Shown: positions 19,952 to 37,081 of the stretch, in pieces
Numbering within the stretch: the stretch's first letter is position 1
Layout of the letters: each line of letters begins with the position of its first letter
Assembly: GCA_028279185.1 (NCBI GenBank)
Contig: JANQSS010000099.1
Location: 124,001 to 188,000 of the forward strand
Direction: 5' to 3'
DNA: 64,000 bases
Source: Saprospiraceae bacterium
GTDB taxonomy: Bacteria > Bacteroidota > Bacteroidia > Chitinophagales > Saprospiraceae
Program-made: the position numbers and the translations under genes
Notes under the pieces: generated by a model
What the model saw: the letters and a program-made list of their open reading frames with translations, nothing else
Database searches by the model: none
Told to the model about the DNA's origin: nothing

Positions 19952-19982
19952 AAAAAAACGAATGGCCTTTACAGGCCACTCG
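19952..19982 (-). terminator. Intrinsic terminator of the secreted-protein cluster
   Basis: On the minus strand a 9-bp stem (CGAGTGGCC/GGCCATTCG, with one G-U pair) closes a six-base loop and is followed directly by seven T. The G-U pair is a C-A mismatch on the plus strand, so the structure is oriented for minus-strand transcripts. It lies about 70 bases after the stop at 20053. A second, weaker hairpin (CCTTTGG/ATCAAAGG type) is at 20026-20046. Confidence 0.8.
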
Positions 19983-20052
19983 CATCCCCTTTATAAACCT
20001 AAAAAACCTAATTTGTACAAAAACTCCTTTGATATTTATCCAAAGGATTCAA

Positions 20053-21294
20053 TCAATTCATTTCAATAAGTGTGTTGGTCATTAATAGCCTCGCCCCAAT
20101 CTCTGTGTTCAACACCAAGCCTGCTGCGGAAATATTCGCATTTCCAATTGTTGAATTTCGCAACTCAACATCCGCGGAAATTCCAATAATCGACATTGCG
20201 GATCCGAAGCCTAAACTATTATTATCTTCAATAAATACGTCATCAAGTACAATTTTACCTTCACTAAGTACTCCTCCTCCTTGATTGTGAACAAGTGCGC
20301 CATCTGCAAAACCATCTTTAATAGACAACCCGTGCAATTGCACTCCGCTGCTTGTTGGCGGTACGTAAACAACGTGATAAATATTATCCGAATTTGAATT
20401 TGGGTTTCCTCTGTCTCCACTCAAAATTGTCTGAAAAATAGCTGGATTTCGTGAAGCACCTCCGATACTATATCCACCAATTACGACCACGCTATCAGGA
20501 AAAACAAATGACTCCTCACGAGTAGCGGCTGCGGTAATATACTTACCTTCTGCAATTAATATTGTATCAAATTTTAGAAAGCAAGTACTGTTTAATGCAT
20601 CAGTCACTGAAAGAAAGGCATCAGCCCATGATAAGCCCGTGCCAGAACCCGTGGCACCTGCGTCAACATATATTACTTTTTGATTAGGATTTGGGCAATC
20701 CGTACATAACTGAGTAGGATCAGCAGAAAATGCAATGAACGAGGGAAATTCTGTAATAAAACCACCCCCATCCAAACTAACCGAAACGGATAAATCTGTA
20801 AAATGATCTTCGCTAATATCAATTGTTTCATTTACAGGAATTTCAAGGCAGATTTGATGTAAGAAAACGGGAACGCCGACTACAACGTCGTTAGCAGGCG
20901 CGCTACCAGAATTTCCAGAGCTATTAAATAACACCATTGAGGAGCCGCTACAGTCGTCGACCAGATTACTATTGTCTGTCATGACACATGTAGTATTGGA
21001 AATAATTGGATTTCCATTGGAATTACAAGTAGCGAAGAAGCCGGTAGTATAACTAGTTGCGACTCCAGAGACAGTCGGTGTGTAGCGCAATCCAAAGCAA
21101 TACGTATTGGCATCGCAATCCGTATCCACTGTACATCCAATAACAGATGTAGAATCCGTTGGAATGAAAACCCATTCCATTGTTTGGGCATTTGATTCAC
21201 CTTTTTGAATCACTAAAAATAAGATGAGAAAAATAATGAAAATACTCTCCTTCGCATATTGTATTATCAATTTATTATTCAATAAGCTGTGCAT
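20053..21294 (-). CDS. Secreted protein: seven-Cys shared domain plus short beta-helix-like region
   Basis: The 413-residue product has a signal peptide (hydrophobic core 18-30, cleavage near NAQT 38). Residues about 39-190 are the cysteine-rich domain shared with the next three genes upstream (Cys 54, 60, 66, 90, 103, 115, 149). From about residue 205 it has the opening of a parallel beta-helix surface protein (KVIYVDAGATGSGTGLSWAD, TILIAEGKY, VVVIGGYS, ISGDRGN-type turn). Such helices usually run for hundreds of residues and end in a sorting domain. Here the chain stops after about 180 residues (LLMTNTLIEMN) with no T9SS signal, and the frame beyond the TGA closes quickly. It may therefore be a truncated gene, although a good terminator follows. 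Confidence 0.75.
   Translation of the reverse strand: MHSLLNNKLIIQYAKESIFIIFLILFLVIQKGESNAQTMEWVFIPTDSTSVIGCTVDTDCDANTYCFGLRYTPTVSGVATSYTTGFFATCNSNGNPIISNTTCVMTDNSNLVDDCSGSSMVLFNSSGNSGSAPANDVVVGVPVFLHQICLEIPVNETIDISEDHFTDLSVSVSLDGGGFITEFPSFIAFSADPTQLCTDCPNPNQKVIYVDAGATGSGTGLSWADAFLSVTDALNSTCFLKFDTILIAEGKYITAAATREESFVFPDSVVVIGGYSIGGASRNPAIFQTILSGDRGNPNSNSDNIYHVVYVPPTSSGVQLHGLSIKDGFADGALVHNQGGGVLSEGKIVLDDVFIEDNNSLGFGSAMSIIGISADVELRNSTIGNANISAAGLVLNTEIGARLLMTNTLIEMN
20725..21180 (-). other. Seven-Cys shared domain, copy in the 413-residue protein
   Basis: Residues about 39-190. It starts MEWVF and contains YTPTVSGVATSYTTGFF, a second Cys motif SNTTCVMTDNS, SSGNSGS and VPVFLHQICLEIP. Cys spacings are 6, 6, 24, 13, 12 and 34 residues, identical to those of the 358-residue neighbour. 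Boundaries are approximate. Confidence 0.75.
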
Positions 21295-21330
21295 AATGGA
21301 TATATGTAATTAGTTATTGACTATTTTCTA

Positions 21331-21882
21331 CTATTTAATTTTTGAACCCACTGAGGTGATTTGCGGTGCAATATTCTGATTGCTAAAAGACGGCCTCTCA
21401 AATATGTAATTGCCATCGTTCCTTGAAATCAAACTCACGGTTAACCCGGTAATTTCGTCTGTGGATATTTCAAGCTGGTTACCAGGAGTTAACTCAAAGC
21501 AGACCATATGGAGTAGCACTGGTATATTTTGGATAATTTCTACGGCGCCAGAATTTCCAGAGCAGTTCATCAGTATTTTGGAAGCCTCATCACAACCATT
21601 TATTTCTGTACTATTATCAGAGATCAGGCACGACGAATTGGACAGAATCGGATTCTCCCCATCAATACAATTGATAAAAAAACCAGTCGTATAATTTGCA
21701 AGCTGCCCTGACTCTGCGGCTGTATATCGTAACGCATAACATAACATATTGGCCTCCGCATCGGTATTATTATCGCAGTTTTCATAGGAAGAATCAGGAT
21801 GCATGAAAGTCCATTCCATTTGCTGAGCATACAACGCCAATGACGAAAATAACAATGCAATAAAAGTTAGGTATCGGATCAT
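21331..21882 (-). CDS. Small secreted protein made of one seven-Cys-type shared domain
   Basis: The 183-residue product has a signal peptide (FIALLFSSLALYAQ, cleavage near residue 20). Essentially one domain follows (about residues 22-168), homologous to those of its three neighbours: MEWTF, YTTGFFINC, LSNSSCLISDNS, NCSGNSG, IPVLLHMVCFEL. The second cysteine of the set is missing (Ala in its place), and the spacing before the last cysteine is 31 rather than 34. There is no C-terminal sorting domain. Its ATG overlaps the stop of the 358-residue gene by four bases (ATGA), which indicates translational coupling and one operon. Function unknown. Confidence 0.8.
   Translation of the reverse strand: MIRYLTFIALLFSSLALYAQQMEWTFMHPDSSYENCDNNTDAEANMLCYALRYTAAESGQLANYTTGFFINCIDGENPILSNSSCLISDNSTEINGCDEASKILMNCSGNSGAVEIIQNIPVLLHMVCFELTPGNQLEISTDEITGLTVSLISRNDGNYIFERPSFSNQNIAPQITSVGSKIK
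21379..21819 (-). other. Seven-Cys shared domain, copy in the 183-residue protein
   Basis: Residues about 22-168 with Cys 36, 48, 72, 85, 97, 128 (plus an extra Cys 107). The position equivalent to the second conserved Cys is not cysteine. The motif order matches the other three copies. Confidence 0.75.
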
Positions 21883-22955
21883 CTTGCATCAGATTTTAAA
21901 ACAACAAATTTTAACGCGCGAATTCCATCCGTACAATTTAATCGTATTGTGTATAATCCTGTCTGATATGTTCTAACGTCAATTTGAATTTCACTTGACA
22001 TGGCAGGCAAAGACTGTCGCGTCACTACATTTCCTTTCATATCTAAAATTGAAATTACTTGCAGTGGAGTAATTGAATTGACATATAAAAAATCAGAAGT
22101 TGGATTGGGATATAGTCGTATGTCATCCAATTCATTGCCCAAGGCTACGCGTACCATATTTGATTTAATGCGCCGACTTTTTTGATCGACATATTCTACT
22201 TTATAGAAGTATATTCCTTGTTCAACTTGTTTATCAAAGTACATTAATTCAACCTGTCCCTCATTTTCGAACGCCCCTATTTCCTCAAAATCAATACTAT
22301 TCGTAGAACGGTAAATTTTATATACGCCTTCTGCAAATTCCCCTACACCATCCCAATATATTCGCGTTAAGTATTCATCGTATTTTGCAACATCAAGGTC
22401 AATTACCTCATCAATTTGTTCGTCCAGGCAATCTTTTATCCATTTAACAATATATTCTTCACATTTTGGAAAATCCGTAGTAGATCGATTCCCGGACCCA
22501 CTTATGCTGATAGTCGCTCCTGTCGTTTCATCAAGTGACATCTTTATTGGAGCATGAGGAGGAACTTGAAAACATACTTGGTGTAAAATAGTCGGCACAC
22601 CAGCTTCTACAGCACTTAGTTGAGAGGAGCCCGAATGACCGGAGCAATTAATCAACACCTTGTTTTCGCTTTCACAATAAACTCTTGATTCACTATTGTC
22701 CGGAAGAAGGCAAGATTGATTGTAGACAACCCTGCTGACTCCATCTAGGCAGTCCGCAAAGTATCCCGTTGTATAGCTTGTAATTATTCCAGTTTTTTCC
22801 GGCGTATATAATAAATTAAAGCAGACAATATTTTCTTCACAAGAAGACAAATTAGCACAAGTAGGATTATTTACGTCATCGTAAGGAACCCAAGTCAATC
22901 CTTGAGAAAATGTTATCAGCGGTAGAATGGATAAAATTATTATTAGATATTTCAT
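21879..22955 (-). CDS. T9SS-exported protein with seven-Cys shared domain and type A sorting signal
   Basis: The 358-residue product has a signal peptide (MKYLIIILSILPLITFSQ). The shared cysteine-rich domain covers residues about 20-168 (Cys 33, 39, 45, 69, 82, 94, 128). A fibronectin-type-III-like segment follows at about 190-270 (YLTRIYWDGVGEFAEGVYKIYRS, IYFYKVEYVDQKSRRIKSN). The last 80 residues are a classic Por/type IX secretion C-terminal signal beginning LYPNPTSDFLYV and ending with GLYTIRLNCTDG and a K-rich end. The protein is thus predicted to cross the outer membrane through T9SS and be anchored or released there. It is coupled to the 183-residue gene by an ATGA overlap and lies 37 bases after the giant gene. 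Confidence 0.88.
   Translation of the reverse strand: MKYLIIILSILPLITFSQGLTWVPYDDVNNPTCANLSSCEENIVCFNLLYTPEKTGIITSYTTGYFADCLDGVSRVVYNQSCLLPDNSESRVYCESENKVLINCSGHSGSSQLSAVEAGVPTILHQVCFQVPPHAPIKMSLDETTGATISISGSGNRSTTDFPKCEEYIVKWIKDCLDEQIDEVIDLDVAKYDEYLTRIYWDGVGEFAEGVYKIYRSTNSIDFEEIGAFENEGQVELMYFDKQVEQGIYFYKVEYVDQKSRRIKSNMVRVALGNELDDIRLYPNPTSDFLYVNSITPLQVISILDMKGNVVTRQSLPAMSSEIQIDVRTYQTGLYTIRLNCTDGIRALKFVVLKSDAR
22446..22898 (-). other. Seven-Cys shared domain, copy in the 358-residue protein
   Basis: Residues about 20-170. All seven cysteines are offset by exactly 21 residues from those of the 413-residue protein, so there is no insertion or deletion between the first and last cysteine in this pair. 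An extra Cys 104 is present. Confidence 0.78.
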
Positions 22956-22992
22956 AATTATCTCTTTTTAAAATTAATTGTCTAATCTGAAA

Positions 22993-25900
22993 TTAATCGA
23001 GCAGTACACCAGTTGTTGTATTTTGATTTGTTTTCCAGATAGTTTCATCCTGCGAATTCGTCGAAACGTTCAAGTTTAAATCTCCAGGCAAATAGCCCAA
23101 TTGATTTTGCAATTGTTTCCAAATAGTTCGGTCGACCGAATTCACTACGTTGGCTGAATTTGATTGCTCGGCATTTGCGCTGAACATGGCCCATACACCG
23201 GGCTCCACTTCTTTTTGCCCGGATCTGAAAACAGGAGCATAGGAATTCTGCAATGTGAAATCCATAACGAGGTGCGTCCCATCATTGGATACCGCCGCTG
23301 TATCAAGCACAGGTAGATGATTTCGATGTTGAACCACGATGTAGTAGTCATTCGACGCACTGAATGTCGGTGTTGGCGTGCAAACTTCTGGGAATGACAC
23401 CTGTCCATCACTTCGAATCCATCCTGCACATTCATATATTTCATCGGCAGGTGTAATACCATTTTCACGAATACTCACCAGAACCCAGTCCACGACTGTG
23501 TTCGGATATTCAATCACAACACCGGGTGCAGATGGTGAAGTGGCATCTCCAAATTGATCACCTAAATTACCCGTAAAATTCCATGGTGCACCCTGATAAG
23601 GTTGACCAAATGGCGTATGGCTTGCTGACAACCTTACGGATAAATTATTGGATGAATCTTTATTCATCCCTGGCAGAAGATGATCATCATTTAATGTCGT
23701 TGCCATATTATCAGTTGCTGTGGAGTACGGCCCTTCTAAGAAGATTCGAAGCTGCATGAGTGCACAATCCAAATTGTACGTGTACGTCCAATCGATCGAT
23801 GACCCCGCACAATCGGTGTATGTATAGGTATACGTAATCGTCCCATCGCAATTTCCAGTTACATGTGTCCCACCGATGACCAGTCCAGTGGGCGTAAGCG
23901 TATTGCCACATGCATCCTGGATGACTGGCAGTACTTCAGGAGGCATCGTATCCAAAAGCGACTGAATCGTAACCGATGTAGATACCGGCCCACCAACTTC
24001 GGCCGGAGGAACATTGTTGGTAACCACCGTTGTGTAAGTCACTGCGGAAACATTACCGCAAGCATCTGTACCTGTCACAGTGATGGTTGTTGGACAATTA
24101 TTTGCATTACTTGCGGAAAGAGAGACGCTGGAGCAATTGTCAGCAGACGTCGTTGCCACTATTGCCGCGGCTTCAGCTTGCGCCATGGTGGCGTAACAAG
24201 GATCAATCGCTCCTGCGGTTAGTGTTGGATTGGTCATGTCATCAACATTGATCGTCTGATTTGCCGTGCTGGCATTGCCGCAGTCATCCGTAACTGTATA
24301 AGTACGTGTAATGACAATGGGGCATGTTCCAGTAGCATTGTCAGAGCTAGACACGGTCAAACTTCCATCCGCCGTACAGGCATCTGATATTGACAATCCA
24401 GCTGCTTCTAGCTGAGCAACAGTTGTGTGCGCTGCTGACGCATCACCTGTTGCGCATCCTTCTTCATTCAATGTCGAAAGAGATCCTGAGATAGCCGGTG
24501 CCGTGTTATCATCCACATTAATCGTTTGCGTAGCAGTATTCGAATTACCACATTCATCGGTAATCGTATATGTGCGCGTAATTAGGATAGGGCATGTACC
24601 TGTGACATTGTCGCTACTCGATACCGTCAAACTTCCATCTGCTGAGCAGGCATCAGCTATTGATAACCCAGCTACTTCCAATTGCGTCACCGTCGTATGT
24701 GGTGCTGATGCATCTCCTGCTACACAGCCCTCTTCATTCAATGTAGCAAGAGAACCTGTGATGGTTGGTGCCGTACTATCATCAACATTTATCGTCTGCG
24801 TAGCTGTGCTGGCATTGCTGCATGCGTCTGTGATCGTGTACGTGCGCGTAATGACTACAGGGCATGTACCTGTGGCATTGTCGCTACTCGATACCGTCAA
24901 ACTTTCATCTGCCGTGCAGGCATCTGATATCAACAAGCCGGCTGCTTCAAGCTGTGCAACTGTTGTATGGGCTGCAGATGCATCTCCTGCAACGCAACCC
25001 TCTTCATTCAACGTGGAAAGAGAACCTGTGATGACCGGTGCCGTATTATCATCAACATTGATCGTCTGTGTAGCCGTACTTGCATTTCCGCATGCATCTG
25101 TGATTGTATATGTCCGCGTTATGACTATCGGGCATGTACCCGTGGCATTATCGCTGCTCGATACGCTTAAACTTCCATCCACCGTGCAAGCATCAAAAAT
25201 TGATAAGCCAGCTGCTTCCAATTGTGCAACAGTTGTATGTGCTGTTGATGCATCTCCTGCCACACAGCCTTCTTCATTCAACGTCGAAAGCGATCCTGTG
25301 ATGGCTGGTGATGTATTGTCATCAACATTGATCGTCTGTGTTGCTGTACTAACATTGCCGCAAGCATCCGTAATGGTGTAGGTCCGCGTGATGACGATTG
25401 GGCACGTACCCGTGGCATTGTCACTACTCGAAACGCCTAAACTTCCATCTGCCGTACAGGCATCTGATATTGACAAGCCTGCTGCTTCCATTTGTGCAAC
25501 GGTTGTATGTGCTGCTGATGCATCTCCTGCCACACAGCCCTCTTCATTCAATGTAGAAAGTGATCCAGTGATGGTTGGTGCTGTATTGTCATCAACATTG
25601 ATCGTCTGTGTTGCTGTACTAATATTGCCGCAAGCATCTGTAATGGTGTAGGTCCGCGTGATGACAATTGGGCACGTACCCGTGGCATTGTCACTACTCG
25701 AAACGCCTAAACTTCCATCTGCCGTACAGGCATCCGATATTGACAAGCCGGCCGACTCCAATTGTGCCACCGTCGTATGTGGTGCTGATGCATCTCCTGC
25801 CACACAGCCCTCTTCATTCAACGTCGAAAGCGATCCTGTGATGGCTGGTGCTGTATTGTCATCAACATTGATCGTCTGTGTTGCTGTACTAACATTGCCG

Positions 25901-28900
25901 CAAGCATCTGTAATGGTATAGATCCGCGTGATGACGATTGGGCATGTACCCGTGGCATTGTCACTACTCGAAACGCCTAAACTTCCATCTGCCGTACAGG
26001 CATCTGATATTGACAACCCGGCTGCTTCCAATTGTGCAATGGTTGTATGTGCTGCTGTTGCATCTCCTGCCACACAGCCCTCTTCATTCAACGTGGAAAG
26101 CGATCCTGTGATGGCTGGTGCTGTATTGTCATCAACATTGATCGTTTGTGTCGCCGTACTCGCATTACCACAAGCGTCCGTAATCGTATATGTCCGGATT
26201 ATCACTACCGGACATGTACCGGTGACATTGTCGCCACTCGACACTATCAAACTTCCATCTGCCGTGCAGGCATCTGATATCGACAAGCCGGCTGCTTCAA
26301 GCTGAGCAACGGTGGTGTGTGCTGCGGACACATCACCTGCAACGCATCCTTCTTCATTCAATGTCGAAAGACTTCCGGTAATGGCCGGTGCTGTATTATC
26401 GTCTACATTGATCGTCTGTGTAGTTGTACTCTGCAAGCCGCATTCATCTGCAATGGTATACGTCCGTGTTATGATTACAGGGCAAGTACCTGTGGAATTG
26501 TCACTACTTGTCACAATTAAATTTTCATTAGACGTACAAGCATCTGATATCGACAAGCCAGCTGCTTCGAGTTGTGCGACAGACGTATGTGCTGCCGGTG
26601 CATCAGCTGCTGTGCATCCTTCTGTATTCAATGCTGAAAGGCTTCCCAAGATAACTGGGGCCTTGTTTCCTTCAAGGTTGGTAGTCGAGTAGGTTGGAAA
26701 TTCTGTTGTTGACCCGCCCGCCGGAAGATCTATACTAGCTGATAGATCCGTAACCGCATCTTCGACTAATGTTACAGTCTGGCCTGCCGGTATTGTCAGA
26801 CAAAGTTGATGAATTATAACGGGTACGCCAGCGACTACCGAAAGTGATCCACCATTACCAGAACTATTGATTAATGTCTGAGAAACAGAGGCACATCCAT
26901 CTATGTCAGAACTATTATCTGTCATAACACAAGATGAGTTAGAAACTACGGGTGAGGCGTCCAAAACACAGTCTGACAAAAACCCGGTTGTGTATGCAGC
27001 CAATGTTCCTGTAGTGGCAGGAGTGAATTCGAGTCCGAAACACAACGTGTTAGTGCAACAATCAGTCGTACTCGTACATGAACCGTTCGTCGAGGAAGCT
27101 GATTGCAATACCCAACGCATGGTTGATTCTTCGTCAATAGCATTGTCGCAATCGTCGTCAATAGAATTTCCGAGCACTTCAATAGCGCCGGGATTAACCG
27201 AATTCATTGTGTCGTCACAATCGGTACTGTCTGCTACGTAGTTGGCCGGTTGAGAGCAAGATTCTGTGGTATTATTTGGATCGCCATAGCCGTCGTTATC
27301 CGTATCGGCATACCAGGTAGTGGTTGTACCGGGGTTAGAAACCCAATTTGATGACGTACCATTTAACGCAAAATTAGATAGCGTCCCATCATGGTTATTC
27401 GATGTTTGATCGGCTACAGCAATTACTCCAGTATTGTCCATATCCGGAGTTGCATTCATGCTATTGAAATTATAATTTGCCACTAAACCTGGAACTGATC
27501 CCGGCAAGTTTACATCATGAATTTCATCAATTTCAGCAGGGTCCAATGCCACATCCCAAATGCGAAGGTTATCGATATCACCATTGAAGTGCGCATTACA
27601 AGGATTGTTTCCAATGCCAATCGCGGCACCATTATTAATATCTGTGTTCATTGTTCCTGTACCATCAAGTTGCCCGTCGATATAAATAGACAAGCTCCCA
27701 TTTGATCGGGTGATTGCCAAATGGTGCCAAGCGTTATCATTCACGACCGCATTACCGTTAATCACTGATCCATTTCCGCAAGAGCCATCCTCGTAGGCTT
27801 CCCAACGAATTTTACCGTCTGAAATGATTTGAATATTCCACAAGTTATCGCATCCACAGGTCGGTCTTTTTGAAAGTAGGAATATGTTAGACGCAGTCGT
27901 TTTGAATCGCATATCAATAGAAAAGTCAGCTGTGCCAAAGTTTCCCAGCGACGTGGTGAAATTTAATTGATCATCAGAACCATCAAAATTAAGAGCCATC
28001 GCATTTTCATCAGCAGTGCCATCGCAATTTTCATCTACTCCGTTACCACAAATGTCAATAGCTGCCGGATGCACTGCATTACTGTTGTCCTGGCAGTCCA
28101 GATTTAGTGATGACGTGGCATCAGTACTTCCGCAGGTCCAGATGGTAGCACCAGCATATCCGTCCATGTCCTGATCGATATATCGTGTTTCAATGCTTCT
28201 GCCTAAGATCCAATTGGATGCTGATCCTGAATTTGCAAAATTGTTAAGCGTCCCATGATTTGCTCCAGCATGTGCGTCAAGTAGAGGCAGTTGTCCATTA
28301 GTCATAGCCGGTTTGCCTTGATCGAATCTATAATATCGAACCAAGTTGGTTTCATCACCATCCAGACGAGCGTCCATTCGCTGGATGATTTGTGCTTGTG
28401 TGAGGGCCGAGTCCCAATACCGGACGTCATCAAAAGCTCCATGGAATGGGTTGTTGCCATTCACGTCAGCGCCGAAAGCGCAAGCTGTAGCGGTTACCAC
28501 AGTGGAGAAAGGAAATGTTCTATGAACGACTCCATCGATATAGAGCACCACATTATTCCCGCTATAGCCATTATGTGTTACGGCGATATGATGCCATTGA
28601 TCATCTCGAAGATCCTGGCCACCATGGTTAAAACCTCCTCCGTTTTCGCGATAGGTCAAGACACCACCAGTGATAAGTCGCAAGTCTGCCCGATTAGTGC
28701 CATTCCATTCATTGATAATTTGGAAATCAGGACTTCCTGAAGCTACTTTTATCCAGGCTTCAAACGTAAAGGCTGAGGTGTGCGCTACTGCAGGTATAGA
28801 CACGTAGTCACTTGCGCCCGTCATATCGAGCGCACGATTTACCTCCAGATCCATGTTTCCATCGCAATCATCATCTATAGAATTTCCGCAAATTTCAAAG

Positions 28901-31900
28901 ACGCCTGGATTTACGTTGGCATCCATGTCATTGCAATCGACGTTATTATCAACAAAGTTTGACATCGATCCGCATGTCCAAACTGTTGAATTTCCATATC
29001 CGTCAGAATCAACGTCGTGGTAAAGAGTTGGGTATGCTCGACTTGCAACCCAGTTGGAGTTTGCACCATTTAATGTGAATCCGACTAAATTTCCTTGAGC
29101 GCCTGAAGATGTTTTATCAATCGCCGTATTTATCAGTTCATTGTTGCCACTGACGATTCCTTGATCAAGCGGAAAATAGCGCACTAAGTTTGCTTCGTTT
29201 CCATCGAGTCGAACGTTCATGCGACTGCGAATTTGCTCTTCTGTGAGTGCTATTTCCCATATACGTACTTCATCGACGACGCCATTGAAAGATTGAAACC
29301 CGCTGCTAAATCCACCTATAGTCAATCTATCAGTTGTCAATGTTTTCGAAATAGAAACATTTAAGCGTCTGATCCCATCTACGTATGATTGCATAGAGGT
29401 CGGTGTGCGAACGATTGCCACATGATGCCATTGATCGTCCACGATAGAAGGGCCACCGTGCCATCCACTCCAAACACCATCACTTTCGCCATACGCTAGA
29501 AGTCCGGCACCTGATATATACATTTGTCCGGTATGTGGCCCTTGCCAGTTCATGATTTGTGTACCTGCGGTAGAGGTTTTAATCCAAGCTTCTAATGTAA
29601 ACGTCGTTTGATGTGGCCAAAAGGGCTCAACTGTCACTCTGTCATCAGTGCCATCAAAATCCAGTGCTTTGTTGATTTCTATATCGGTATTGCCATCACA
29701 ATCGTCGTCTTCGGAATTACCGCATACTTCTGAGGCCAACGGGTTGATGGCACTGTTTGTATCGTCGCAATCGAGATTGTTATGAGCAAAATTACTCGTT
29801 GCGCACAGGTTAGTTATCGGAGTGGCCGGGTCACCGAAATTGTCCATATCAGTATCCGCATAGACTGTAATATTCAAACCGGAAGTAATATTAGAAGCCG
29901 ATCCATTGAGCGTAAAGCCTTCCAGGCTATGTGCATGATTAAAGGTACTATGATCATTGAAACTCGTGAGCGCTGTGTTGTCGCCGTTTGAAGTACCTTG
30001 ATCGATCGGTATGTAACTCACGAGATTTTCATCGCGGCAGGAATTTACACATCGCATATCCGTGTCTACCTGGGTGACCGACCTGGCTGTATTCCAAATT
30101 TTTATTTCATCAAGCGTACCGCCGAAATACTGGCTGAGTGATTCTCCAATGCGCAAACTACCCACTCCATTGTAATTGCCAGTGGCGCGATCGCTGGCAA
30201 CCAAGACCCCATCCCGATAAATAAAGCGATTATGCGCCGGAGCTACGATGCTGTGATCATAAACACAGGCCCAATGATGCCAATCTGTATCGGTATATGT
30301 AGCCGTGGTGCTTAAGTCATTTCCATAAAATGCAAAAGTGAATGTATTGTCGGATCGAAAGCCTATGGTCAGCCCCATATTTGTACTTGCCCACCCTTGA
30401 CCTATTATGTAATCCGCCGACCCGATCGCATCGCGCTTGACCCAAAATTCAGTTGTGAACGAGGTTGCGCGCAAATCAATTGACCCATTGCTAATAACAA
30501 TTCGATCATCTGATCCATCGAAATGTATTCCTTGGCCCGTGTTGATAGTGGGATCTGTGTATAAATTTACATGAAAGATTTGGCTTAAATAGCCATCACA
30601 TACGTTCGCACCATCCGCATACTGCGCTCGATATTCCCCGGACATTGTAGCATTCAGCGCAGTGCCCGTCTCACCGGCTAGTTCGCTGCCATCCTTAAAC
30701 CACTTGATCGAATATCCAGTGGGTGTGCTCGATGAAATGGTCAATGTAGCCGTCGTTTCACATACCTGACTTGAAATTGTTGGTGCTTGAGGAGGATCAC
30801 AAGGCATTACCGAATTGGCGTACGTATCACCCTCCCATGGCCCTCTACCCCATGTTGAAATTCGCAATTTATTTATGTGGGGCAAGACTTCGATAGCGCG
30901 AATGCGAACATGAGGCAATCCTTGATTGTGCAGTACCCAGTCAGGTAATGTGTTGTCTTTGTAATAAATCAAACCGCGTTCACCCGCCACATAAAGAGCG
31001 TCATTGGCCCCTTCCTGGTAAGCGATACTTGACTCATTGATACCGACTGGTATTGTACCCGATATATTGGTCCATGTCATACCGCCGTCAGTCGTTTGCA
31101 TGACTACATTGCTACGGCAGACCCAAAATCGGTCGGCGTCATTAGGATCGAATACCAGACACTGCCGGGTCGTTAGATAAATTCCAGGGTAAGTCAAGGT
31201 CGTCCAGGTCTGCCCTTCATCCGTACTCTTTAATAAATCTGCACCGTAGGCGGTAATAATGGTATTTGGGTCAGACGGCGCTATATAAAAAAATCGAAGA
31301 GCTGTGCTGCCGTTTCCAATATTTCCGTTTGTAAGATTGGTCCAGGATTGTCCTTGGTCGGTGGACTTAAAAATATCAAAGTATAAGGTATAAATGGTGT
31401 TCTTGTCAGTTGGATGCAATACCATTTTATGATGAAATGTAGCCACGCCACCACCTACGCTTTGATTCATAATTTGAATGGATACGTCGCTTTGATTTTC
31501 ATCGTTGTGAATAATTTTATTGATACTGATTCCTTGTTGGATCGTCGTATAATACAACTCTTCATTCGTTGGATCCATTTGGGTAAATTCACCATCTCCT
31601 CCTATTGGTCTTGTCCATGTACCATTCATATCCGTATGAATTCCAGCATCTTGTAGGCCGAACGTTTTACGCGTACCTGTTTTATTAGATGAAAGATGAT
31701 TTAATTGGGTGACGGGCAGATTTTCGATAGTTGTCCAGGTGGCCCCATCGTCTCTACTAAATCCAAGACCACCGTCATCGGCGATCCAAAATTTGTTGTT
31801 TGCCGTAGTTTGAATCTTAAAATCGTGTACATCGGCGTGTAATGACGGGATTCGATTGAAAGTGGTGCCGCCATCGAATGATTGGAAATTGAATACACAT

Positions 31901-33153
31901 CCATAGAAGATACGATTCGCATTAGTTGGATCTAATTCAATACGAAAATCCCATGCCCCGCCGACTGCGGCTCCCATATTCACAGATGGGTCAAGTACTG
32001 TAGTTAATGCGTCTGTGCTTTGCGTGTATTTTATGATAATGCCACCAGTATTTAGATAACTTCCATGCGGATAGACTCCAATCATCGCGATATCAGGGTT
32101 AGCGGGAGATACGGCAACCTGAGTCGTACGGCCTTCGCTGTCAATCGAGAGTGTCTTTTGGGTAAATGTGGTTCCGCCATTAGTTGAAACATAGAAATAT
32201 CCAAAATTAGGCGAACCATTGCCACGCACAGAAGCGTACATTATGTTGCTGTTTGTAGGATGAAATTCCACGTCATTGACATCGGTTGGCAATGCATTGT
32301 TTTTAATCCAGGTAACTCCACCATCTGACGAGCTAAACAACCCTTGATTGGTACATGCCAACAGTGTGCTACCATCAGGATGCAACATGAGTTTATGCAC
32401 ATTTTGTGCATCCATAAAGAGTAGACCAACGATATTCCATGTAATACCTCCATCGACTGATTTGAGTACGCCTCGATTAGGATTAAACCAGGAATCATGA
32501 TCATCGGTTGCCACGTAAATAATGTTGTGGTTGTTCAAGTCGTAGATTAAATCACCAACACTTTGGTGTTCCCAAAAATCGTCAATGACCGTCCAGGTAT
32601 CACCGCCATCATTGGATCGCCAAAGGCCTCCTTCAGGCGCACTAGCCCACACAATATTTGAGTCTGTGGGGTGAAAATTTATTCGTTCAATTCTTCCATT
32701 GTTTGAGCTAAATACTGAATTTGTTTGTCCGATATATTGAAAGTTGGCTGCTCCAGGCGCACGCGATATTGATTTGTGAGTGCTTACACTTTTTACATCA
32801 TCGTCATAAAACTGAAACGGGCGTTCCCCATTTCCATGGTACGATTTCAATTCTTTGTATCGTTGCCAACGTTTGTAGAGTTTGCCATAATCACCTAAGT
32901 CACGGTTGCCGAGTTTTTCGATAAATAGGGTTTCGACTGACTGATAGCTCAACAAAGCATCGTTGAAAAGAACCAGCCAGGGAATTTTATCAAAGTCGGC
33001 ATTGGTGTAGCTACCTATCGTTTTTACTTCGTACCGCTGTCGTACCAATTCTCGCCCAGTCGTAGATTGCGCTTGGCTATCAATGGGTCCGCTCGCGAAA
33101 AGCATCAGTAAAAGTAATTGAAAGGCGATTTGAGTTATCAGTTTCGTTTTCAT
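22993..33153 (-). CDS. Giant modular surface protein (propeller, LamG, MopE, repeats)
   Basis: The 3386-residue chain has a signal peptide (about 1-29). A beta-propeller of BNR/Asp-box type (about 135-780) carries repeated SxDGGxTW motifs such as WRSNDGGDTW and LKSVDGGITW, as in sortilin-like or GH74-like propellers. An Ig-like segment sits at about 785-850. Four alternations of LamG-type lectin domain (DFDGxDD starts near 870, 1160, 1440, 1715) and MopE-type metal-binding motif (DxDxDGYG...DCDD...DDDCDG, about 1091, 1374, 1651, 1941) follow. Then come the seven-Cys shared domain (about 2012-2160), nine 90-residue repeats (2165-2974), a divergent tenth repeat, and a tail ending in a dockerin-like GDLNLNVSTNSQDETIWK segment. 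No type A sorting domain is visible. It is likely an adhesin or matrix protein outside the cell. Three more secreted-protein genes follow on the same strand. Confidence 0.9.
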   Translation of the reverse strand: MKTKLITQIAFQLLLLMLFASGPIDSQAQSTTGRELVRQRYEVKTIGSYTNADFDKIPWLVLFNDALLSYQSVETLFIEKLGNRDLGDYGKLYKRWQRYKELKSYHGNGERPFQFYDDDVKSVSTHKSISRAPGAANFQYIGQTNSVFSSNNGRIERINFHPTDSNIVWASAPEGGLWRSNDGGDTWTVIDDFWEHQSVGDLIYDLNNHNIIYVATDDHDSWFNPNRGVLKSVDGGITWNIVGLLFMDAQNVHKLMLHPDGSTLLACTNQGLFSSSDGGVTWIKNNALPTDVNDVEFHPTNSNIMYASVRGNGSPNFGYFYVSTNGGTTFTQKTLSIDSEGRTTQVAVSPANPDIAMIGVYPHGSYLNTGGIIIKYTQSTDALTTVLDPSVNMGAAVGGAWDFRIELDPTNANRIFYGCVFNFQSFDGGTTFNRIPSLHADVHDFKIQTTANNKFWIADDGGLGFSRDDGATWTTIENLPVTQLNHLSSNKTGTRKTFGLQDAGIHTDMNGTWTRPIGGDGEFTQMDPTNEELYYTTIQQGISINKIIHNDENQSDVSIQIMNQSVGGGVATFHHKMVLHPTDKNTIYTLYFDIFKSTDQGQSWTNLTNGNIGNGSTALRFFYIAPSDPNTIITAYGADLLKSTDEGQTWTTLTYPGIYLTTRQCLVFDPNDADRFWVCRSNVVMQTTDGGMTWTNISGTIPVGINESSIAYQEGANDALYVAGERGLIYYKDNTLPDWVLHNQGLPHVRIRAIEVLPHINKLRISTWGRGPWEGDTYANSVMPCDPPQAPTISSQVCETTATLTISSSTPTGYSIKWFKDGSELAGETGTALNATMSGEYRAQYADGANVCDGYLSQIFHVNLYTDPTINTGQGIHFDGSDDRIVISNGSIDLRATSFTTEFWVKRDAIGSADYIIGQGWASTNMGLTIGFRSDNTFTFAFYGNDLSTTATYTDTDWHHWACVYDHSIVAPAHNRFIYRDGVLVASDRATGNYNGVGSLRIGESLSQYFGGTLDEIKIWNTARSVTQVDTDMRCVNSCRDENLVSYIPIDQGTSNGDNTALTSFNDHSTFNHAHSLEGFTLNGSASNITSGLNITVYADTDMDNFGDPATPITNLCATSNFAHNNLDCDDTNSAINPLASEVCGNSEDDDCDGNTDIEINKALDFDGTDDRVTVEPFWPHQTTFTLEAWIKTSTAGTQIMNWQGPHTGQMYISGAGLLAYGESDGVWSGWHGGPSIVDDQWHHVAIVRTPTSMQSYVDGIRRLNVSISKTLTTDRLTIGGFSSGFQSFNGVVDEVRIWEIALTEEQIRSRMNVRLDGNEANLVRYFPLDQGIVSGNNELINTAIDKTSSGAQGNLVGFTLNGANSNWVASRAYPTLYHDVDSDGYGNSTVWTCGSMSNFVDNNVDCNDMDANVNPGVFEICGNSIDDDCDGNMDLEVNRALDMTGASDYVSIPAVAHTSAFTFEAWIKVASGSPDFQIINEWNGTNRADLRLITGGVLTYRENGGGFNHGGQDLRDDQWHHIAVTHNGYSGNNVVLYIDGVVHRTFPFSTVVTATACAFGADVNGNNPFHGAFDDVRYWDSALTQAQIIQRMDARLDGDETNLVRYYRFDQGKPAMTNGQLPLLDAHAGANHGTLNNFANSGSASNWILGRSIETRYIDQDMDGYAGATIWTCGSTDATSSLNLDCQDNSNAVHPAAIDICGNGVDENCDGTADENAMALNFDGSDDQLNFTTSLGNFGTADFSIDMRFKTTASNIFLLSKRPTCGCDNLWNIQIISDGKIRWEAYEDGSCGNGSVINGNAVVNDNAWHHLAITRSNGSLSIYIDGQLDGTGTMNTDINNGAAIGIGNNPCNAHFNGDIDNLRIWDVALDPAEIDEIHDVNLPGSVPGLVANYNFNSMNATPDMDNTGVIAVADQTSNNHDGTLSNFALNGTSSNWVSNPGTTTTWYADTDNDGYGDPNNTTESCSQPANYVADSTDCDDTMNSVNPGAIEVLGNSIDDDCDNAIDEESTMRWVLQSASSTNGSCTSTTDCCTNTLCFGLEFTPATTGTLAAYTTGFLSDCVLDASPVVSNSSCVMTDNSSDIDGCASVSQTLINSSGNGGSLSVVAGVPVIIHQLCLTIPAGQTVTLVEDAVTDLSASIDLPAGGSTTEFPTYSTTNLEGNKAPVILGSLSALNTEGCTAADAPAAHTSVAQLEAAGLSISDACTSNENLIVTSSDNSTGTCPVIITRTYTIADECGLQSTTTQTINVDDNTAPAITGSLSTLNEEGCVAGDVSAAHTTVAQLEAAGLSISDACTADGSLIVSSGDNVTGTCPVVIIRTYTITDACGNASTATQTINVDDNTAPAITGSLSTLNEEGCVAGDATAAHTTIAQLEAAGLSISDACTADGSLGVSSSDNATGTCPIVITRIYTITDACGNVSTATQTINVDDNTAPAITGSLSTLNEEGCVAGDASAPHTTVAQLESAGLSISDACTADGSLGVSSSDNATGTCPIVITRTYTITDACGNISTATQTINVDDNTAPTITGSLSTLNEEGCVAGDASAAHTTVAQMEAAGLSISDACTADGSLGVSSSDNATGTCPIVITRTYTITDACGNVSTATQTINVDDNTSPAITGSLSTLNEEGCVAGDASTAHTTVAQLEAAGLSIFDACTVDGSLSVSSSDNATGTCPIVITRTYTITDACGNASTATQTINVDDNTAPVITGSLSTLNEEGCVAGDASAAHTTVAQLEAAGLLISDACTADESLTVSSSDNATGTCPVVITRTYTITDACSNASTATQTINVDDSTAPTITGSLATLNEEGCVAGDASAPHTTVTQLEVAGLSIADACSADGSLTVSSSDNVTGTCPILITRTYTITDECGNSNTATQTINVDDNTAPAISGSLSTLNEEGCATGDASAAHTTVAQLEAAGLSISDACTADGSLTVSSSDNATGTCPIVITRTYTVTDDCGNASTANQTINVDDMTNPTLTAGAIDPCYATMAQAEAAAIVATTSADNCSSVSLSASNANNCPTTITVTGTDACGNVSAVTYTTVVTNNVPPAEVGGPVSTSVTIQSLLDTMPPEVLPVIQDACGNTLTPTGLVIGGTHVTGNCDGTITYTYTYTDCAGSSIDWTYTYNLDCALMQLRIFLEGPYSTATDNMATTLNDDHLLPGMNKDSSNNLSVRLSASHTPFGQPYQGAPWNFTGNLGDQFGDATSPSAPGVVIEYPNTVVDWVLVSIRENGITPADEIYECAGWIRSDGQVSFPEVCTPTPTFSASNDYYIVVQHRNHLPVLDTAAVSNDGTHLVMDFTLQNSYAPVFRSGQKEVEPGVWAMFSANAEQSNSANVVNSVDRTIWKQLQNQLGYLPGDLNLNVSTNSQDETIWKTNQNTTTGVLLD
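24232..26661 (-). repeat. Nine tandem 270-bp coding repeats in the giant gene
   Basis: Nine consecutive units of exactly 270 bp (90 codons) fill this interval. Each unit encodes the order GSLSTLNEEGC, HTTVAQLEAAGLSISDAC, TGTCPIVITRTYTITDACG, TQTINVDDNT. The frame is preserved and no unit has an insertion or deletion. Units 2-9 are very similar at DNA level, while the first (26392-26661) is the most divergent. A tenth, degenerate and shorter unit follows before the tail. Each unit has four cysteines, in HYR/Ig-like sequence typical of Bacteroidota surface proteins. Confidence 0.95.
26674..27120 (-). other. Seven-Cys shared domain, copy in the giant protein
   Basis: Residues about 2012-2160, placed between the fourth MopE motif and the repeat array. 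Starts MRWVLQ; Cys spacings are 6, 6, 24, 13, 12 and 31, with one additional Cys next to the second. YTTGFLSDC, SNSSCVMTDNS, NSSGNGGS and VPVIIHQLCLTIP match the neighbours. Confidence 0.78.
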
Positions 33154-33383: not shown

Positions 33384-33839
33384 TCAACATTTTTTATTTT
33401 TTTCAATAAAACTTGAGGGAAGCCGGCCAAATCGAATTTTAAACTGCTCTGAAAAATGTGCAACATCCTTATAACCAACAGCATGTGCAGCTGACTTAAC
33501 CGACTTGACTTGGTGTGTTACCAGCAGCTTTTGCGCCAGACTAAACTTTTGTTCTCTGATAAACATCGAGGGTGTAAGACCGTAAATCCTGTATACCCTC
33601 CGTTGCAATTGTCTTCGGCTGAGATAGAGTTCTTTACTCAGGAATGAAACCGTCAGGCGCGAATCGGAAATGTGTTTCTTCACGACTGTATTAAGTCTGT
33701 CAATCCAATCTACTTCCACCGCAGACTGATCTTGATTCAACTTGCTTGGTATTAATTCAGCTCTAAAATTCATCGAATGCATGGCGTTTATAAATGCAGG
33801 TACACGTATTAATTTCTGCTGACTAAAAAAAGTGATCAC
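33384..33839 (-). CDS. Short AraC-type DNA-binding protein
   Basis: The frame gives 151 residues from a GTG at 33839; an ATG at 33782 would give 132. Residues about 50-147 are a complete AraC/XylS double helix-turn-helix: FLSKELYLSRRQLQRRVYRIYGLTPSMFI, then VKSAAHAVGYKDVAHFSEQFKIRFGRLPSSF. There is no ligand-binding or receiver domain, only about 45 preceding residues. Free-standing forms of this size exist in Bacteroidota, but loss of an N-terminal domain cannot be excluded; a stop lies six codons upstream. It is 230 bases upstream of the giant surface gene on the same strand and diverges from the TPR-CHAT gene, so it could regulate either. Confidence 0.8.
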   Translation of the reverse strand: MITFFSQQKLIRVPAFINAMHSMNFRAELIPSKLNQDQSAVEVDWIDRLNTVVKKHISDSRLTVSFLSKELYLSRRQLQRRVYRIYGLTPSMFIREQKFSLAQKLLVTHQVKSVKSAAHAVGYKDVAHFSEQFKIRFGRLPSSFIEKNKKC

Positions 33840-33940
33840 TTTTGCCTTAATTATTTATTGATCGATTTTCTGTGGAAAATGACGTCGGTAATAAAATTTG
33901 GAAATAAGCTGGAGAACTAACTACTTTTGCGTGTGTGAAA

Positions 33941-36900
33941 ATGTTTCACACCATTTCTTTGCCAATTGCCAATCCGATGAATCAATTAAAATTTAAATCG
34001 TTTAACAGAATTGTGTTTTTCGTTATGTGGTTATTTTGTACGAACGGATGCATTTCATTTAGCCTATCAGCTCAAGTCTTAGAAATTTCCTTTGAAATGT
34101 GTGCGCACGAGTCAAACGCATCTATCTCGGCTACATCGATTGACAGTCTGATTGAATTGCGAGATTTTGAACATGCAGAAAAAGCGATCAAAAAACACAT
34201 AAATTATTTTAAAAACGCAAAACAGTGGGACTGCTATTTTAAGTCAGGTATGCAATTGGTGACCCTGCAGATGCAAATCCAGGATTCAAGTTGTATAACG
34301 GAAGCAACCAAGATGCTGCGCATGTATGATTCGCTGGCATACGATCAACCACGAATTGTAAACAATTTGTACATGGACATGGGAAATTACTATGCCGAAG
34401 ATCGAAGTTTTACTGCGGCTACCCATATTTATGATCGCGCCCTGAAATTTGCGAACGAACATTTGTCACATGACACGGCTTCACTGGCCAAGTTGTACAA
34501 TAATATTGGCAGTTTTTACATGTATATCGGCAACTATGAAGAATCAGCTAATTTTCTAGAAAATGCGTTGTCATTTAATATGTCATTACCGAAGACAGCT
34601 GCCTCCATAGAGGCTAGTGTCAATAACTATATTAATCTAGGCATTATATTTAAAGAACTCGGAAAGTATGACGAAGCCGTAGACTACTATTTAAATGCAC
34701 TTAAAATTAATCAACAGGGAGATAGTAGTATCGTCGTAGGTAAGATTCATTATAATTTGGCATATGCCTACTATTATAAGGGCGATTATTTCGTAGGGAT
34801 TACGAGCGCATTGTTGGCAGAAAATGTATTTAAATATGTACTGGGAGAAGAACATGGGTTCTTGGTTGTGTCGTATAATTTAATTTCACAATTTTACGAG
34901 CAGCTGCAAGATGATCGTGCCGCCGTGTATATGCAAAAGGCATTGGATCTAAGTCTGCGTCTCTATGGGTCATCACATACGAGAGTTGCCATTCAACATC
35001 TACGGATAGGGGGCTACCACAACAACGAGAATAATCATTCGCCAGCCATACAGCATTTAACAGAAGCTGTTCGAATTTTTCGGCTCGATCAGGCGGCAAA
35101 TACGCGATTTTTAATTGAGTCGTATCAGAAATTAATGGATGTCTATGGATCGCAAGGCACAGCAGTGGATAGCATTAAAAAATATGCTGATTTATCGCTA
35201 GAATTTGAAAAATTAATTTTTGGTGAACGCAATCATCGCTATAGTGATACATACGATGCGTTGATAGTATTTTTAATTACTTCTGGCAAATATGCCGCCG
35301 CAGAACATTACTTAAAGCAATCTTTTTATAACAATACTTCAGTCTATGACACCCTCGGAAGCCTGAATTTGTCAGAAACTGATGAGTATATTGATCAAGC
35401 GATGGCTGTAAAAACATTGTTGCGATGCGCAGAATTGGAAAAAAGTCGCATGAAAAAAAACGGATTTAATATTGATCGGTGGAATCAGGCGCAAGCTTAC
35501 CTCGATCAAGCCGTTCAAATGAAACGCGAAATGACCCATTATTTTAATAATAATATTCGAGAGGAAGGGGAGCACTCCATGGACATCGAACTAACCAAAA
35601 TTGAATTATATCTGAGGTTTCTCCAAGATTTACCGCCGGACAAATTGGAATCCCAAGTGTTCCATGCATTTGAACTCTATAAAGGTACAAAACTGTTGCA
35701 ATCGAGGCTCACACAAGAGGTCTGGTCAAATATGGGACTACCAGATAGTTTGATAAATGTGGATGATCAATATGCAGCAACTATCGATTCGATAGAGCAA
35801 AACCTAACCTATGAACGAACGTCAGATTTGATAGAACGCCTGTCAACGAAAAGAAATGAACGCGCCGCGTTCAACGATCAAATGGCACAAGAATATCCGG
35901 AATACAAAGTGGCAATCAGCGACTCCAATTTAGTAGGTTTGGAAACCATTCAGCATACCTTAAATGAAGAGGAAGTGATCTTTCAATACATATTTGATGA
36001 ATTTACCGAAAGCTATTATACGCTTGTAGTCGACAAGCAGGATGTAGAAGCGTATGTTTATCCAATTCCTACTTCGTTTAATACGCAGGTAGAAGAATTA
36101 CATACCTTGCTCGGTTCGCTGTCACTAAATAGAAAGGCAAAAAGAGATCGATTTATCGATTTGTCAAATGAACTTTATACAATCTTAATCGCTCCTTTTG
36201 AGGCTCATCTTCAAAACAAACAAAAAATAATTGTTCTGGGAGATCAGCTAACTCATTTTATTCCTTTTGAGGTTTTGCTAAAAGAAAATAGCAAGGTAGG
36301 ATTTCAAGACCTCGAATACCTGTTGCGTCAATATGAAATAAGTTATCACTATTCTGCCACGATGTATTATCAATCTGTGAAAAATGAGGTAGATATTCAG
36401 CATGTTTTTGCGTTTGCTCCGGTTTTCGACAATGTGCAAAATGAAAAAGAAATAATAGATCATACTGTGAATGAGGTTGCCGCATTGCGTGCTACGGACG
36501 CGTCTGGCGAATACTTTCCATTGAAATTTTCAAGGCAGGAAGTACAATCCATCGCTCAACTATTTAATTCTGCAGAAAGGACAAGTGATGTGGCATTATA
36601 CGAGCAAGCCGATAAACGCAGATTGATACATGCATTACAAAGCGACTACGATGTGATCCATATCGCCTCGCATAGTTTCGTCAATGAATTGTATTCAGGA
36701 GCATCAGGTATTGCTTGTTTTCAAGCAGATACAACGTCAAAATTCAATGATTTACAATTAAGTGAATTACAAAATTTACGCGTAAATGCCGATTTGGTCA
36801 CCTTGAGTAGCTGCGAGAGTGGAATTGGAAAAATGGTTTTGGGAGAAGGCCTTATTGGTTTAAACCGAGGTCTTATATTTTCTGGTGCTAACAATGTCAT

Positions 36901-37081
36901 TTTTTCTCAATGGAAAGTATATGACAAATTTACAAGTGAATTTATGCGTGAATTTTATAAACACTTTCTGAATGGCAAGACGTATTCCGCAGCATTACAA
37001 TCAACAAAGCTTGACATGATAAAAAAGTCGTCTACTACCTCACCGCAATATTGGTCTGCCTTTTTATTGATTGGTAGATAA
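33941..37081 (+). CDS. TPR-CHAT protein (caspase-fold peptidase)
   Basis: About 1046 residues. A hydrophobic segment near the N terminus (RIVFFVMWLF...SLSAQ) looks like a signal peptide; the start may be ATG 33941 or, better for a signal peptide, ATG 33977. Residues about 80-480 hold tetratricopeptide repeats (for example AKLYNNIGSFYMYIGNYEES and NLGIIFKELGKYDEAVDYYL). The C-terminal 300 residues are a CHAT domain with the catalytic His in IHIASHSF (H911 from 33941) and Cys in LSSCESG (C958), then GLNRGLIFSGANNVIFSQW. CHAT domains are caspase-like proteases activated through their TPR partner. It converges with a sigma/anti-sigma pair, suggesting a proteolytic signalling module. Export to the periplasm is inferred. 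The target is unknown. Confidence 0.9.
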   Translation: MFHTISLPIANPMNQLKFKSFNRIVFFVMWLFCTNGCISFSLSAQVLEISFEMCAHESNASISATSIDSLIELRDFEHAEKAIKKHINYFKNAKQWDCYFKSGMQLVTLQMQIQDSSCITEATKMLRMYDSLAYDQPRIVNNLYMDMGNYYAEDRSFTAATHIYDRALKFANEHLSHDTASLAKLYNNIGSFYMYIGNYEESANFLENALSFNMSLPKTAASIEASVNNYINLGIIFKELGKYDEAVDYYLNALKINQQGDSSIVVGKIHYNLAYAYYYKGDYFVGITSALLAENVFKYVLGEEHGFLVVSYNLISQFYEQLQDDRAAVYMQKALDLSLRLYGSSHTRVAIQHLRIGGYHNNENNHSPAIQHLTEAVRIFRLDQAANTRFLIESYQKLMDVYGSQGTAVDSIKKYADLSLEFEKLIFGERNHRYSDTYDALIVFLITSGKYAAAEHYLKQSFYNNTSVYDTLGSLNLSETDEYIDQAMAVKTLLRCAELEKSRMKKNGFNIDRWNQAQAYLDQAVQMKREMTHYFNNNIREEGEHSMDIELTKIELYLRFLQDLPPDKLESQVFHAFELYKGTKLLQSRLTQEVWSNMGLPDSLINVDDQYAATIDSIEQNLTYERTSDLIERLSTKRNERAAFNDQMAQEYPEYKVAISDSNLVGLETIQHTLNEEEVIFQYIFDEFTESYYTLVVDKQDVEAYVYPIPTSFNTQVEELHTLLGSLSLNRKAKRDRFIDLSNELYTILIAPFEAHLQNKQKIIVLGDQLTHFIPFEVLLKENSKVGFQDLEYLLRQYEISYHYSATMYYQSVKNEVDIQHVFAFAPVFDNVQNEKEIIDHTVNEVAALRATDASGEYFPLKFSRQEVQSIAQLFNSAERTSDVALYEQADKRRLIHALQSDYDVIHIASHSFVNELYSGASGIACFQADTTSKFNDLQLSELQNLRVNADLVTLSSCESGIGKMVLGEGLIGLNRGLIFSGANNVIFSQWKVYDKFTSEFMREFYKHFLNGKTYSAALQSTKLDMIKKSSTTSPQYWSAFLLIGR

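Follow-up and report, generated by a model that had tools for sequence, protein, structure and literature searches.

Dockerins are the natural partners of cohesins. In cellulosomes, whose pairs fall into types I–III (Pfam PF00963 and PF00404), the cohesin sits on a surface-anchored protein bound to peptidoglycan and the dockerin on its cargo, while adaptor scaffoldins bear both modules on one protein. Outside cellulosomes, the cohesin module of Clostridium perfringens (2jh2, GH84C) joins large secreted proteins; we know of no conserved disulfides in that module. A cellulosome-like complex has also been inferred in Cloacimonadota, where a cohesin protein would be attached to the surface by its C-terminal domain, which is of the T9SS type, and dockerins lie on other proteins, the modules being canonical, InterPro-detectable ones on a 3,755-residue scaffoldin (PMC8542988). 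Bacteroidetes genomes have been described as having neither cohesins nor dockerins (PMC5831590), and both were reported absent from two cellulolytic Bacteroidetes species (PMC6247017).

We analysed a locus of a Saprospiraceae bacterium, within a stretch of 64,000 nucleotides (the window), that resembles cellulosomal pairs in a predicted jelly-roll fold and a paired, loop-helix-like tail, in the proposed placing of the cohesin-like module on a surface-anchored protein and of the dockerin-like one on cargo, and, as in adaptor scaffoldins, in a protein (p3386) bearing both. Unlike cellulosomal pairs, its modules show no Pfam-level similarity to either family, have conserved cysteines with predicted disulfides and a non-canonical first loop, and are tied to a T9SS anchor rather than a peptidoglycan-bound one. 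Of what defines a cellulosome (plant-wall catalytic subunits, a multi-cohesin scaffoldin, a CBM), the operon contains no such enzymes, and the genome contains one dockerin-like tail. The C. perfringens module is the best structural match of our modelled domain, but its host is Gram-positive and it serves enzymes, whereas here the cargo would be a LamG/HYR giant. The layout of a T9SS-tailed cohesin-like protein with dockerin-like modules on other proteins is shared with Cloacimonadota; here, however, the families are undetected ones, and usually one cohesin-like domain lies beside one dockerin-like giant. We found no paper in the open-licence literature on cohesin-like/dockerin-like pairs in Saprospirales. 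Because Pfam calls neither cohesin nor dockerin at the locus, we do not file its modules under PF00963 or PF00404, although they probably work like members of those families.

The four-gene unit and its shared domain

Four adjacent minus-strand ORFs encode secreted proteins of 3386, 358, 183 and 413 residues (p3386, 22993..33153; p358, 21879..22955; p183, 21331..21882; p413, 20053..21294), exactly as an earlier sequence-only reading had placed them. The giant p3386 begins with a signal peptide, a Vps10/BNR-like propeller, and four LamG domains with four MopE motifs (Pfam/NCBIfam), continues with one seven-cysteine (7-Cys) domain (26668..27120) and ten HYR_4C repeats, and ends in a beta region with a dockerin-like module. 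In p358, the proposed surface anchor, a signal peptide is followed by the 7-Cys domain (22461..22901), a linker region and a T9SS type A sorting tail (21882..22115; Por_Secre_tail, E 5e-13, Pfam and NCBIfam). p183 consists of a signal peptide and one 7-Cys domain (21370..21819), and p413 has a signal peptide, the domain (20734..21183) and a beta-helix-like region. Of the partner regions named in the earlier reading, Pfam and NCBIfam give the MopE motifs of p3386 and the T9SS tail of p358; the beta-helix of p413 has no match in Pfam and stays a reading of its residues.

Only 37, −4 and 36 nt separate the four genes, and p413 is followed by a strong hairpin of 11 pairs that runs into TTTTTT (19958..19983, minus strand) and closes the unit like a terminator, so that one transcript is likely. 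Loss of a T9SS tail from p413 by frameshift was considered and rejected: the 222 nt downstream encode no such tail in any frame, and the terminator follows. Matches of p358 to the PCSK9 C-terminal domain (E 0.009, below cut-off) and of p413 to Nodulin_late (E 0.64) were attributed to chance. Most of the ten HYR_4C repeats of p3386 (window 23773-26646) are almost identical at the protein level, which may reflect recent expansion or gene conversion. By reading only, the ORF next upstream of the operon (33384-33839, minus strand) is AraC-type regulator-like, and the one divergent from it (33935-37081, plus strand) encodes a TPR/CHAT-like protein.

Each of the four proteins contains one domain of about 150 residues with the exact spacing C-x5-C-x5-C-x23-C-x12-C-x11-C-x30-33-C. 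The cysteines are at 54/60/66/90/103/115/149 in p413 and at 33/39/45/69/82/94/128 in p358, that is, offset by exactly 21 throughout with no indel, as had been claimed; those of p3386 are at 2026/2032/2038/2062/2075/2087/2118 and those of p183 at 36/-/48/72/85/97/128, where Ala replaces C2, the one loss noted before. The four copies are homologous, with pairwise identities of 37-49% and BLASTP E values of 5e-35 to 1e-53, far above chance. Seven cysteines are the common core but not the total, since p3386, p358 and p183 hold one extra each inside the domain: a vicinal CC at C2 in p3386 and an 'NCSG' motif in p358 and p183. The vicinal CC is found in 4/4 giant-borne copies and in none of 20 others; the 'NCSG' cysteine occurs in four of six p358-class copies in addition to p183.

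Among 24 copies compared, C3 and C7 are always kept. The same four copies, which represent two or more separate lineages, lack both C1 and C5 (Fisher 9e-5), one distant copy lacks both C4 and C6, and four lack C2 alone. Because these pairs are lost together, the alignment suggests disulfides C1-C5 and C4-C6 and, by exclusion, C3-C7. The earlier reading cautioned that an even number of disulfides is not guaranteed, one Cys being lost in one copy; the odd number of cysteines can be recast as three co-lost, predicted disulfide pairs plus a variable C2.

The predicted cohesin fold and the C terminus of the giant

No Pfam or NCBIfam family covers the 7-Cys domain, and a search of PDB sequences returned no relative. 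Cohesin (PF00963) stayed below its curated cut-off, the Pfam searches giving no match to it even with limits of E 1-10. An AlphaFold model of the p413 copy, built from ten sequences, was all beta with ten strands (pLDDT 87.7, pTM 0.81). When it was compared with the PDB by Foldseek, about 31 of the top 50 matches were cohesins by our count. The best was C. perfringens 2jh2 (E 8.5e-4, probability 1.00), with type I, II and III cohesins below it; the list includes 4ums (TMq 0.55, probability 1.00), 1ohz_A, 2ccl_A, 5lxv_A, 5nrm_A and 3ul4_A, and also the CBM3 structures 4b96 and 6xx1. The domain is therefore predicted to fold as a cohesin, and the model has the ~140-150-residue jelly-roll beta-sandwich of PF00963; as the TM-scores of the Foldseek list are only 0.4-0.55, the relation is distant and at the level of fold. 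The family is thus unrecognised, as first described, at the level of sequence but not of fold.

The C-terminal module of p3386 (22996..23700, minus strand), which we call family A4, joins a beta part to a dockerin-like tail. The beta part, with the pattern 'LEGPY...VDWVLV.IREN...HRNHL', spans ~150 residues (window 23220-23700) and makes up a separate conserved family, which is widespread in the order and has no Pfam match here. Type I dockerins are defined by two tandem repeats of ~22 residues, each a Ca-loop and a helix; the tail, the last 75 residues of p3386 (22996..23220), has two loop-helix-like repeats. The second contains the Ca-loop-like motif DLNLNVSTNSQD (23047..23082), with D, N, N, N and D at ligand positions 1, 3, 5, 9 and 12, and the first, ANAEQSNSANVVNSVD (23131..23178), is non-canonical. 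In 24 related tails, loop 2 has D at position 1 (24/24), N/D at 3 (23/24), D/N/S at 5 (24/24) and D at 12 (24/24), and the non-canonical loop 1 retains N9 and D12.

When a profile of the tail family was searched against PDB sequences, 15 of its 19 matches (up to E 10; best E 0.02) were dockerins, including 4fl4_A, 1ohz_B, 2ccl_B, 5k39_B, 5lxv_B, 5nrm_B and 3ul4_B. The seven named here are partner chains of cohesins that match the 7-Cys model. As sequence matches they are weak singly, but their concentration on dockerins is not. Dockerin_1 (PF00404) remained below cut-off (best E 0.0035, 2/24 tails), and the Pfam search gave no Dockerin_1 match for p3386 itself; matches of the tails to Peptidase_C23 and DUF3599 were dismissed as chance. 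The AlphaFold model of the C-terminal module (four sequences) had a pLDDT of 47, so its uninformative Foldseek result was not used. The tail of p3386 is the only one found in this genome.

Relatives and linkage of the two modules

A whole-genome search placed the 7-Cys domain at these four positions only. Relatives were found at three loci in GTDB contigs (by title Lewinella, Saprospiraceae and unclassified Bacteroidetes) and, within the order, in seven of 399 genomes, every one of them from the same family; the rest of the phylum sample added a single weak match (E 7e-4) and viral contigs none. The domains are clustered, one to four per cluster. A giant with the conserved C-terminal module lies upstream, and the next gene has the 7-Cys domain, at all three GTDB loci and in five genomes of the seven, the one studied here included; in the other two (G370, G245) no tail module is linked. 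At L035, L036 and L037 the giant also bears one 7-Cys copy. In the tree, the giant-borne copies form one group and the p358 class, encoded directly behind the giant, another (split 97/93), with one change each. Because each class groups across genomes, we take the two roles to be old and kept. Orphan 7-Cys proteins of 669 and 665 residues (L038 7989-9998, L039 7345-9342) have no tail module nearby.

A4 modules were found in 109 of the 399 genomes, with dozens of candidates in some. In the 20 A4 loci that we read for the downstream gene, this gene often starts with a secreted domain, 'VDC....CYDVQL...F.L.GQNYRLFYD...CFDV', that has no Pfam match. By sequence this general cohesin-like family is related to the 7-Cys domain: C2, C3 and C7 coincide, and hhalign gave 84.8% with a bridging copy from L040 and 60.7% without it. 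In the bridging protein (L040 8887-10008) the copy is distant (E 2.7e-7), contains AYNIWVTYDQSKL and retains only five of the seven cysteines. The tails most similar to that of p3386 come from five genomes, all of them 7-Cys genomes, and the 7-Cys domain therefore seems to take the place of the general form where the tail is of this class.

We collected 28 loci in which a secreted protein with a cohesin-like domain follows a dockerin-like C terminus at a distance of 93-338 nt. They comprise 25 among the 75 best tail modules, where the distance is 94-331 nt, and the three GTDB loci; for 50 of the 75, no cohesin-like partner was detected directly downstream. The cohesin-like family occurs in 49 of the 399 genomes, and a tail module is present in 46 of these (Fisher 2.5e-26, shared ancestry ignored), a figure to be read, like the others on co-occurrence, with the profile having been built from genes beside tail modules. 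Conversely, a strong tail match is present in 32 genomes, and all of these but G302 (31 of 32) have a cohesin-like or 7-Cys domain; both partners are absent from 59 of the 109 genomes with any A4 match, most such matches being weak and partial. In a chosen set of 50 genomes, none of the 20 tail-negative ones had the cohesin-like family. The distance (mirror-tree) correlation of the 28 pairs was 0.58 (0/2000 permutations), a value that descent alone can yield, and re-pairing within genomes failed to set the true pairs apart (32/96 equally good).

In three genomes (G003, G004, G387; with L074 5374-7560 and L075 1-15787), 73-188 candidate dockerin-like C termini accompany 15-19 cohesin-like domains, and most of them are unlinked. 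A single protein there combines three or more cohesin-like domains, and the tail bearers include CotH/LTD/cadherin giants in tandem; the set looks like a cellulosome-like network. Single proteins with a cohesin-like domain and a C-terminal dockerin-like module, laid out as in p3386, occur at G045:C145 and G019:C121 (L058).

A proposed socket and plug on the cell surface

The earlier reading proposed that the shared domain serves a single extracellular complex as a scaffold or interaction module. The cohesin-like predicted fold and the dockerin-like module at the end of the giant favour that proposal, and from them we infer the binding itself. Because a domain with this predicted fold is encoded next to a giant with a dockerin-like tail, we propose that giant proteins are clipped to the surface by socket and plug, probably a previously unnoticed clip-on system of these bacteria. 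For the locus itself, we hold it reasonably probable that disulfides stabilise the 7-Cys domain, a cohesin-like socket for a dockerin-like plug, that the four genes make up one surface-assembly transcription unit and that p358 anchors the tail-less giant. The T9SS tail of p358 would serve for its export and anchoring, and the single socket that p358 thus displays at the cell surface may capture the C-terminal plug of p3386, presumably with Ca bound in the loop of the plug. The internal socket of p3386 could, speculatively, take the plug of a second giant and so extend a chain, with p183 and p413 as possible chain caps or, equally speculatively, a beta-helix arm. p3386 itself has a signal peptide but lacks a T9SS sorting tail, and the model leaves its crossing of the outer membrane unexplained.

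The distribution of sorting tails bears on this proposal. Within the locus the T9SS type A sorting domain (PF18962, TIGR04183) is on p358 and not on p3386, p183 or p413; in relatives it is on most direct downstream partners. All six p358-class proteins and four of five complete general-family partners scanned have the tail, and none of 11 tail-module proteins scanned does. The tails are complementary: usually the cohesin-like neighbour has one and the dockerin-like protein does not. The same pattern could arise if the C-terminal module of the giants were itself an unrecognised T9SS-type sorting domain and the cohesin-like neighbour a dedicated export or retention partner, as SprF serves SprB; the module is indeed always at the extreme C terminus, where a sorting tail would be, and its partner gene is often directly downstream. 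We regard this as unlikely, because the tail resembles dockerins rather than Ig-like sorting domains, and because the neighbour is a T9SS-tailed secreted protein, not an outer-membrane protein of the PorP/SprF kind.

CBM2 and CBM3 belong to the same fold superfamily as cohesins, and LamG and C-type lectin domains are among the partners. The 7-Cys and cohesin-like domains might thus bind carbohydrate, in adhesin operons whose linkage stems from common use and involves no mutual binding. That possibility seems to us rather slim: cohesins outnumber the CBM3 structures by ~10:1 in the Foldseek list, and the linkage is specific to the dockerin-like tail, both in the 28 loci and in genome co-occurrence. 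Tandem duplication of one stable secreted domain into four paralogues that form no joint complex would fit the adjacency of the copies and the sister pairs at L013 and L037, but we give it little credence, as giant and p358-class copies each group across genomes and the dockerin-like partner is left unaccounted for.

Returning to the socket-and-plug reading, we put at about even the chances of its wider form: that Saprospirales-type Bacteroidota have a large undetected cohesin-like/dockerin-like family, with the 7-Cys domain as its disulfide-locked class, which holds tail-less giants on a T9SS-built surface and makes up a cellulosome-like network in G003, G004 and G387. If the pairing is true, it would offer a disulfide-stabilised protein pair for engineering and would assign a functional end module to many unannotated giants. 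It would also explain how giant secreted proteins with no type IX sorting tail are retained on the surface. The reported absence of cohesins and dockerins from Bacteroidetes would then be partly a failure of detection, and a whole order would have a plug-and-socket system.
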